NCBI RefSeq assembly: GCF_003966695.1
Contig: NZ_AP018827.1
Location: 1,654,501 to 1,718,500, forward strand
Direction: 5' to 3'
Source of the DNA: Asticcacaulis excentricus
GTDB taxonomy: Bacteria; Pseudomonadota; Alphaproteobacteria; Caulobacterales; Caulobacteraceae
DNA length: 64,000 nucleotides
Shown here: piece after piece, positions 11,575 to 12,844 of the stretch
How the letters are laid out: every line of letters starts with the position of its first letter
Numbering within the stretch: position 1 is the stretch's first letter
Notes under the pieces: model-generated
What the model was told of the DNA's origin: nothing
Databases searched by the model: none
What the model saw: only the letters and a program-made list of their open reading frames with translations
Program-made: the position numbers and the translations under genes

Positions 11575-11588
11575 AGTATCCGTTTTGA

Positions 11589-12527
11589 TCAAGCGGATTT
11601 TGGTGTCCATTTTCGCTTATTCCGCAGGAGTGCGTTAGCGAGGATGATGAGCTTTCGCATGACGGCAGTGATGGCGACTTTTGGTGGTTTTCCTGCGGCT
11701 TTGAGTTGGTGGTATTTGGCCTTGAGATTTGGGTTGAAACGGCAGGCGACGAGAGCAGGCATGTAGAGGGCTTGGCGGACGATGGCCCTGCCGCCGGCGA
11801 TGAAAGCGCGTCCGTTCCATCGTCCGGACTGGCGGGTCATGGGGGCCAGTCCGGAGAGTGCGGCGGCAGCCTTCTCATCGAGTTGACCGAGTTCCGGCAT
11901 CTCGATAAGGAGCGTAAAGGCCGTGATCTGCGACACGCCAGGTATCGAGACGAGGATGTCGAACCTGGCGCTCAGGGAGGCATCTGCGCCGATCATTGTC
12001 ATGATGGCGTGGTCCACGGCCTTGAGCTGGCGCTCGACCTGAGCGAGCCTGTCGGCATTGTGTCTCTTCAAGAGCGGGCTTGTAAGGTTGTTGGCCCTGT
12101 TTTTTGTGGCGGTCCTGTCCTTGATCAGGGCCAGCCGTGCGGCGTGTAACTCTTTCAGATCATTGTGGATTTGAGGGTTGGCTTTCAGAGTGCGTGGTTC
12201 AAGCAACTGGCCGTAACGGGCCAGCAATTCAGCGTCGATCCGGTCTGTCTTGGCCAGCCTGCCTGTGGCTTCACAGAAGCGACGGGCAAGGCGCGGATTG
12301 ACTTTGGAGAGCGGCAATCCTTGCGCCATCATGAACTGCTCGAAGGCTTTGTGGTAGGGGCCTGTCGGCTCATAGACAATCCGCGCCACGCCCTTTTCGG
12401 TGATCCACCTGACAATGGTGGCAAATCCCTTGCGGTCATTACTGACCCTCAGGGTTTGACCGTCTGGCAGACTGTGCAGGTCGATATGGTCTTTCGAGAT
12501 GTCTGCACCGATGGTATTATCGTTCAT
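11589..12527 (-). CDS. IS110-family DEDD transposase (RNA-guided recombinase type)
   Basis: 312 aa with the N-terminal RuvC-like DEDD domain: D9 (GADISKDHID), E53 (VYEPTG), D95 and D98 (KTDRIDAELLARY). A middle coiled region is followed by the C-terminal Transposase_20 domain (SIPGVSQITAFTLL ... SGLAPMTRQSGRW), where Ser234 is the likely nucleophile. All expected catalytic residues are present and the frame is unbroken, so the enzyme is probably active. Recent work on IS621 shows that such recombinases use a bridge RNA from the element's non-coding end; the candidate RNA lies directly upstream. Confidence 0.93.
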   Translation of the reverse strand: MNDNTIGADISKDHIDLHSLPDGQTLRVSNDRKGFATIVRWITEKGVARIVYEPTGPYHKAFEQFMMAQGLPLSKVNPRLARRFCEATGRLAKTDRIDAELLARYGQLLEPRTLKANPQIHNDLKELHAARLALIKDRTATKNRANNLTSPLLKRHNADRLAQVERQLKAVDHAIMTMIGADASLSARFDILVSIPGVSQITAFTLLIEMPELGQLDEKAAAALSGLAPMTRQSGRWNGRAFIAGGRAIVRQALYMPALVACRFNPNLKAKYHQLKAAGKPPKVAITAVMRKLIILANALLRNKRKWTPKSA

Positions 12528-12539
12528 CTTTTCTGATCT

Positions 12540-12720
12540 CCTATGCTTGTCATCCGAGCCAAAAGCTCCGGTATCCGTTCAGGACGATTGGAAAAGATGG
12601 GGGCGATCAAACTCTAAACCGGTCCGGCCTTCCTAAGAAGGCTGACCTGCGGAATCACGATCCGTCCCCCATCGCCGGAGACGGATGGCCGTCCTCTCCG
12701 GCGCTTCTTTATCGCACCAA
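12540..12720 (-). ncRNA. Candidate IS110 bridge RNA (target loop then donor loop)
   Basis: Read on the minus strand. A 5' hairpin (12702-12674, GCCGGAGA/TCTCCGGC) comes first. Next is an internal-loop structure closed by CCCCC/GGGGG and GATC/GATC arms (12659-12670 with 12599-12608) and capped by a GCCTTC/GAAGGC hairpin (12627-12642). Its two strands hold GATTCCGC (12656-12649) and TTTAGAG (12618-12612). Then a second loop holds AACGGATAC (12579-12571) and GACAAG (12551-12546) around a GAGC/GCTC hairpin. AACGGATAC equals the element's right end plus core C (9/9). GACAAG is complementary to core CT plus the left end (6/6). TTTAGAG is complementary to CTCTAAA of the family B target (6/7 at this site). 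GATTCCGC matches the left target GAATGCGC at 6/8. Order and geometry follow IS621. RNA ends are not determined. Confidence 0.72.
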
Positions 12721-12742
12721 GAAGCACAGAAATCATAAGACA

Positions 12743-12844
12743 AGCGCATTCCGAAAAGTGTGAAACGGTTTTCGGAATCAAATGCGCTACAAAACAAAAT
12801 GTTAGAGCGACATTTCGATTCAACCTGAACGAAATGCGCTCTAA
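12743..12844 (+). repeat. Family B two-hairpin repeat, copy 1 (interrupted by the IS at its left end)
   Basis: About 100 bases with two hairpins. The first is GCGCATTCCGAAAA...TTTTCGGAAT...ATGCGC; the second is AGAGCG...ATTTCG...CGAAAT...CGCTCT at 12804-12842. The first six bases (TTAGAG) are left at 11571-11576 on the far side of the IS110 element. About 90% identical to copy 2 (24117-24223), which is in reverse orientation. It now forms the upstream region of ppk2. Confidence 0.85.

Follow-up and report, generated by a model that had tools for sequence, protein, structure and literature searches.

An IS110-group insertion sequence of Asticcacaulis excentricus with a predicted left-end bridge RNA whose guides match the element's own ends and the end of a MITE-like repeat

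Results

An IS110-Group Element with a Long Noncoding Left End

The stretch of DNA analyzed here, referred to as the window, comprises 64,000 nucleotides of Asticcacaulis excentricus (contig NZ_AP018827.1, positions 1,654,501 to 1,718,500). It contains an IS110-group insertion sequence of 1168 bp (11575–12742), the ends of which were defined by alignment of the genome's four complete copies. The element and its parts lie on the minus strand. It is flanked by a CT core (12744–12743 and 11576–11575) and consists of a recombinase gene of 312 amino acids (11589–12527) between a long noncoding left end of 215 bp and a short right end of 14 bp. The left end very probably (probability about 0.94) encodes a bridge RNA with guides that read both the element's own ends and the end of a repeat resembling a miniature inverted-repeat transposable element (MITE).

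The recombinase contains both IS110-family domains, PF01548 and PF02371, each above cut-off. Compared with solved structures at E ≤ 0.01, it has two matches, IS621 (8wt6, E = 1.7e-28) and ISCro4 (9t56, E = 4e-28). The protein is of the DEDD type with a Transposase_20 domain, and the catalytic D, E, D, D, and S are all in place; these were read by eye from the alignment to the IS621 structure, with the PDB chain taken to be offset by two residues, for the residues named in PMC11208158.

Five left ends, 99%–100% identical, are present in the genome, belonging to the four complete copies and one truncated copy. The latter (L047, 1618–1912) retains the whole left end and approximately 26 codons, followed by host sequence, and its left flank is the target repeat described below. 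One complete copy (L001) has ATA in place of the recombinase start codon, which is ATG in the other three. A second IS110-family element, with a 366-amino acid open frame, occupies four places in the same genome (L005–L008); by eye, inverted GGGTGGACGGCTCCC-type sequence lies near both of its ends, as in the IS1111 group. Membership of that group was rejected for the element in the window, as its right end is 14 bp and its RNA lies in the left end, whereas IS1111 elements carry the bridge RNA in a long right end.

Architecture of the Predicted Bridge RNA

The body of the RNA, whose ends are predicted, spans 12532–12717 and scores 160.5 bits against the covariance model described below. The 206-nt strand folds with −93.2 kcal/mol (z −5.34), a stability equaled by none of 200 shuffles. 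A sequence-only reading of this DNA had proposed an IS621-type layout, and all of its components are present: a 5′ hairpin, a target loop, and a donor loop, with closing arms and apical hairpins, the four guides sitting in the open sides of the two internal loops. The 5′ hairpin (12673–12703) precedes the 5′ closing arm of the target loop (12658–12673), which pairs with 12608–12596 in the 3′ closing arm (12596–12608). Between the arms lie the left target guide TGATTCCGC (12649–12657), an apical hairpin (12621–12647), the right target guide TTTAGAG (12612–12618), and a predicted handshake base, U, facing the donor A (12611). The donor loop follows, with the left donor guide AACGGATAC (12571–12579), an apical hairpin (12556–12568), the right donor guide GACAAG (12546–12551), and a predicted handshake base, C, facing the target G (12545). 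It is closed by the AGG of AGGAG (12538–12542) pairing with CCT at 12583–12581; the same AGGAG is the likely Shine-Dalgarno sequence of the recombinase, judged from its spacing to the start codon.

The sequence-only reading had matched these guides to specific DNA, for the most part correctly. AACGGATAC at 12579–12571 is identical to the right end at 11584–11576, GACAAG at 12551–12546 is complementary to CTTGTC at 12744–12739, and GATTCCGC, inside 12657–12649, agrees with GAATGCGC at six of eight positions, all as claimed. TTTAGAG was likewise correctly located (12618–12612), but its proposed complement, CTCTAAA, lies to the right of copies L001 and L003 and not of the copy in the window, where the flank is CTCTAAG and gives 6/7 pairs plus one U-G wobble. 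The predicted junction promoter, the handshake bases, and the MITE-like nature of the target go beyond that reading.

To assess chance, the left end (215 bases) was shuffled 20,000 times with dinucleotide counts preserved. The exact 9-mer AACGGATAC arose in three shuffles, and in none was it followed by GACAAG at a suitable spacing; TTTAGAG alone arose in 530, and the full ordered set of guide matches in none. An Rfam search of the window at the gathering threshold returned no match.

Both Loops Are Supported by Covariation

We aligned 25 left ends, from the element and its relatives. RNAalifold, given no structure, recovered both loops with their closing arms and hairpins, in all 23 pairs, 15 of which show compensatory change. 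Over the 25 sequences, 96.8% of cells pair, and 81 changes affect both sides of a pair, against a mean of 21.9 after shuffling; slid controls gave no more than 13. The 5′ hairpins have very different sequences and, since MAFFT does not align them, were folded individually and kept outside the pair counts; a single hairpin is predicted in 25/25.

Donor Guides Change Together with the Element's Ends

In the window, the left donor guide equals the right end, and among the relatives the two change together in L112 and in L108/L109. In L015/L016 and in L107, it is the right donor guide and the left end that change together. These cases bear on an alternative in which the working RNA would be a short seekRNA comprising the target-matching part only, the donor loop being no guide and the ends being recognized in some other way. 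We consider this unlikely, given that donor guides equal the ends here, that the two co-change in four separate cases, and that the pairs of the donor loop covary.

In IS621, once strands have been exchanged, bases located after each right guide form pairs with the other DNA (PMC11208158). We compared the corresponding donor-loop base with the core-adjacent target base in 34 elements and found C-G in 26, A-T in four, and C-C in four, such that 30/34 are Watson-Crick pairs and every A faces T (Fisher 2.2e-5, relatedness ignored). The target-loop base is U facing a donor A in 32/33, including L009, the right end of which is mis-assigned. No comparable rule emerged for the second handshake base among the elements compared.

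Target Guides Follow the Insertion Sites

If the target loop is a guide, its sequence should follow the flanks, and the sequence-only reading had named such a comparison of related copies as its check. We ran it on the element and its relatives, for which 39 rows yielded 32 distinct insertion sites. The seven rows removed were L086, L087, and L092 (the same insertion as L011), L016 (flanks as in L015), L099 (as in L095), and L107 and L009 (right end not usable). Of the 7 non-core bases, the left target guide matches 5.38 in its own left flank, compared to 3.03 for swapped flanks, with the better of two registers scored in cognate and swapped pairs alike; the right target guide matches its own right flank at 4.25 of 5, compared to 2.17. 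Neither the left nor the right value was reached in 20,000 permutations. The excess also holds when each guide pair is represented by a single site (26 sites) and when each right-guide type is (16 sites; left 5.62 versus 2.81, right 3.88 versus 1.52).

A position scan, in which the guides were not presumed, places the signal at the same bases. Every position of 24 usable aligned RNAs was given a cognate-minus-swapped score. For left flanks, the best of 165 positions is the left guide (2.23), followed by a position one base off (1.09); for right flanks, the best of 167 is the right guide (2.39), the next reaching 0.41. The maxima of the two reversed controls are 0.61 and 0.62. The expectation that guide loops co-vary with insertion targets is thus borne out by both the 32 sites and the scan.

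Among five close relatives, pairwise differing positions amount to 52% in the left target guide (a value inflated by the guides of L011 and L091 being shifted by one base), 36% in the right target guide, 0% in the donor guides, and 9% in the remaining RNA. As a side observation, L015 and L016, relatives in different genera, are inserted at one and the same site; the surrounding sequences resemble each other and perhaps represent another mobile element.

Elements Found by the RNA Model Mostly Lie at Guide-Predicted Sites

A covariance model was built from the 25-row alignment, in which the window is one training row. It has one match in the window and five in the window's genome, at the four complete copies and the truncated one. 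Over 41 sources it returned 22 rows at E ≤ 1 and 18 at E ≤ 0.001; the 18 comprise the window, the truncated copy, and 16 others, 14 of which immediately precede an IS110 recombinase, several being copies of one element. The remaining two are an interrupted left end (L067) and a match elsewhere (L034). In L067 (∼482–1437), the left end of a relative is split by ∼950 bases between its two donor guides. The model did not match the four IS1111-type copies L005–L008.

When searched against 150 genomes of the order, the model matched five. Elements known from the model alone could be read in two of these, G158 and G178, with loci examined for 12 of 15 matches; two of these (L138, L139) are off-pattern and were left unscored, and L142 and three G178 matches without loci fall outside the scoring. 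The guides of the G158 and G178 elements predict the target GCCTGCG-CT-TCCCA. The left flanks inside loci (n = 6) match at 7, 5, 7, 2, 7, and 7 of 7 bases, and the right flanks (n = 7) at 5, 5, 5, 5, 5, 3, and 4 of 5, compared to means of 2.6 (left) and 0.7 (right) for the same guides against 32 other flanks. Elements found by the RNA model alone are thus mostly at guide-predicted sites.

These sites and the 32 above speak to a further possibility, that the left end serves chiefly as a structured 5′ leader controlling recombinase translation and that its matches to ends and flanks are coincidental. The closing arm of the donor loop does contain the likely Shine-Dalgarno sequence, and ISPpu9 has a folded 5′ untranslated region that likely includes the ribosome site (PMC8450116). 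Against this, guides follow flanks both over the 32 sites and in the loci found by the RNA model alone, and a leader as sole explanation, which is contradicted by the 32-site test, is very improbable; it may be a second role of the same sequence. Equally improbable is selection of the target by the recombinase protein through a DNA motif that the RNA merely resembles, as was proposed for recognition of repetitive extragenic palindromic (REP) sequences by a transposase before bridge RNAs were known (PMC1525189): recombinases ∼82% identical (L010, L011) carry different guides, each at a site matching its own, and near-identical RNA backbones differ chiefly in their target guides.

The Target Is a MITE-like Repeat

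To the left of the insertion lies a repeat (12743–12844, minus strand), identified by BLAST, by comparison of its ends, and from empty loci; its last base and a TA duplication lie on the other side (11574–11572). The repeat is ∼103 bp long, has at least 41 matches in the genome among those listed (40 of 65 candidates scored), and is present in 25/25 genomes of the genus examined. Its usual ends, in 30 displayed copies, are inverted (TTAGAGC...GCTCTAA). At the window locus, three relatives (L123–L125) have neither repeat nor insertion sequence and show a single TA. At the L037 locus, L130 has a single TA where the repeat has TA on both sides, L131 and L132 have neither the repeat nor a TA there, and L129 has the repeat. 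From the single TA at repeat-free loci, the repeat resembles a MITE with TA target-site duplications; the duplication rests on two loci, L126 and L127 being not readable. The insertion sequence subsequently inserted itself one base into this TA; the last base of the repeat, the TA, and flanking sequence are what the right guide reads.

The sequence-only reading had held that related copies with the same guides at unrelated targets would speak against it. No such case arose in this genome, where four of the five near-identical left ends have left flanks that match the repeat by BLAST, among the matches listed. The flank of L002 is absent among those matches and resembles a diverged repeat by eye alone. 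The copies use both ends of the repeat, and the left guide TGATTCCGC fits each imperfectly, at 5 to 6 of 7 bases. CGCTCTAA occurs 172 times in the genome, compared to 88 for its reversed control.

We sought a parent transposase for the repeat through the genome's two DDE_3 genes, near which TAGAGC/GCTCTA occurs, located by position alone, and obtained no clear result. In a subfamily of the repeat (L057, L061, L062), the first ∼60 bases are common and are followed by a different shared sequence. A search for literature on IS110 and miniature inverted-repeat elements, judged by title and abstract start, turned up nothing about such targeting.

A Predicted Junction Promoter and an Overlap with the Likely Recombinase Ribosome Site

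A −35-like TTGATC in the right end (11587–11592) overlaps the recombinase stop codon, and a −10-like TATGAT lies in the left end (12732–12737). The two stand 17 bp apart only when the ends are joined and then agree with 9/12 consensus bases; in the integrated window copy, the same −10 gives 5/12. In 31/33 elements, the best site (7 to 10 of 12, scored as a motif alone) has its −35-like hexamer at this position and a spacing of 17 bp, L015 and L009 being the misses.

The CC/GG pairs that close the donor loop are kept in 25/25 aligned left ends. In 38/39 rows, duplicates included, the GG of this arm lies upstream of ATG, and GGN is separated from ATG by 7 to 13 bases; the exception is L001, which has ATA. 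Because the 3′ arm of the donor loop would hide the Shine-Dalgarno sequence of the recombinase, this arrangement suggests that folding as a bridge RNA competes with recombinase translation. A more tentative idea, which we regard as possible but less likely than not, is that one transcript has two mutually exclusive uses, closure of the donor loop switching the element from messenger to guide and back. Given that its target guide recognizes a MITE end and the TA duplication, the element would then be a self-regulated parasite of a mobile repeat. The main text of PMC11208160 does not mention ribosome, Shine-Dalgarno, RBS (ribosome binding site), or start codon, and the papers listed for bridge RNA with ribosome and translation, judged by title and abstract start, contained nothing evident on such an overlap.

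Discussion

The anatomy of the RNA, its complementarity to ends and target, the covariation of guides with targets, and the covariation of structure are direct observations, and several points among them count against a bridge RNA. Donor guides mismatch their own ends in L013, L104, L103 (a record with a masked base nearby), and L017 (which has a TT core), and disagreement with the right end is common at the first of the nine left-donor positions. C faces C in 4/34 handshake pairs. The number of further pair types in the structural alignment is weakly raised (32 versus 27.5 shuffled, reached by 6/500). The left target guide in the window matches at the six of eight positions noted above and is therefore imperfect; among relatives, the left guide scores 3/7 in L091, L104, and L106, the right guide 0/5 in L101 and 1/5 in L108, and, among the elements found by model, the left guide 2/7 in L152. 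The permutation and Fisher tests ignore relatedness, for which the 16 right-guide types are the nearest control.

Considered together, the sequence data are consistent with a further IS110 bridge-RNA element of the kind described in 2024, well supported at the level of sequence. By analogy with IS621, from which we infer excision, transcription, ribonucleoprotein binding, cleavage, and strand exchange, the element would be excised as a circle in which right and left ends are joined. The joined ends would form a sigma70-like promoter (TTGATC, 17 bp, TATGAT) driving the left-end bridge RNA. The donor loop would pair with the circle junction AACGGATA-CT-TGTC and the target loop with an end of the MITE-like repeat, such as GGAATGCG-CT-CTAA. 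At the CT core that both share, strands would then be exchanged by the DEDD/serine recombinase, and each loop would contribute a handshake base that pairs with the other DNA.

At this locus, raw sequence sufficed to read out a bridge RNA and its natural target, and comparison alone to confirm them. The element's relatives in the Alphaproteobacteria provide natural guide-target pairs for rules of mismatch and handshake, on a branch distant from IS621, and the guide appears to recognize the end of another mobile element plus its duplication.

Comparison with Known Systems

The IS1111-group elements IS4321/IS5075 target Tn21-family inverted repeats, and their target is thus, as here, the inverted-repeat end of another mobile element; their RNA lies in the right end, whereas the present element belongs to the IS110 group and carries it in the left. 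Copies confined to one intergenic repeat family are also described for ISPpu9, ISPpu10, ISPa11, and ISRm19 (PMC1525189), but those repeats are REP sequences, whereas here the repeat is MITE-like and appears to duplicate TA. With ISEc21 and ISMch6, the seekRNA elements, our element shares an upstream noncoding RNA and a circle promoter, both predicted here, and target matches on two strands; natural redirection between relatives is also known from those two. Their RNA is described as a short target seeker, in contrast to the covarying donor loop found here (PMC11187229).

The closest parallel is IS621 (PMC11208160, PMC11208158). The recombinase family, the left-end RNA with a 5′ stem-loop and two internal loops, the guide order (left target, right target, left donor, right donor; LTG-RTG-LDG-RDG), the CT core, the handshake bases, and the end-junction promoter are all alike, the RNA and the promoter of our element being predictions. 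The two are distant relatives (PDB match E = 1.7e-28), and the target is the end of a MITE-like repeat instead of the REP sequence of E. coli. The right guide spans at least 7 nt, whereas the IS621 structure pairs 4, and the left target guide carries, of the core, its first base alone. In contrast to IS621, the closing arm of the donor loop overlaps the likely ribosome site of the recombinase.
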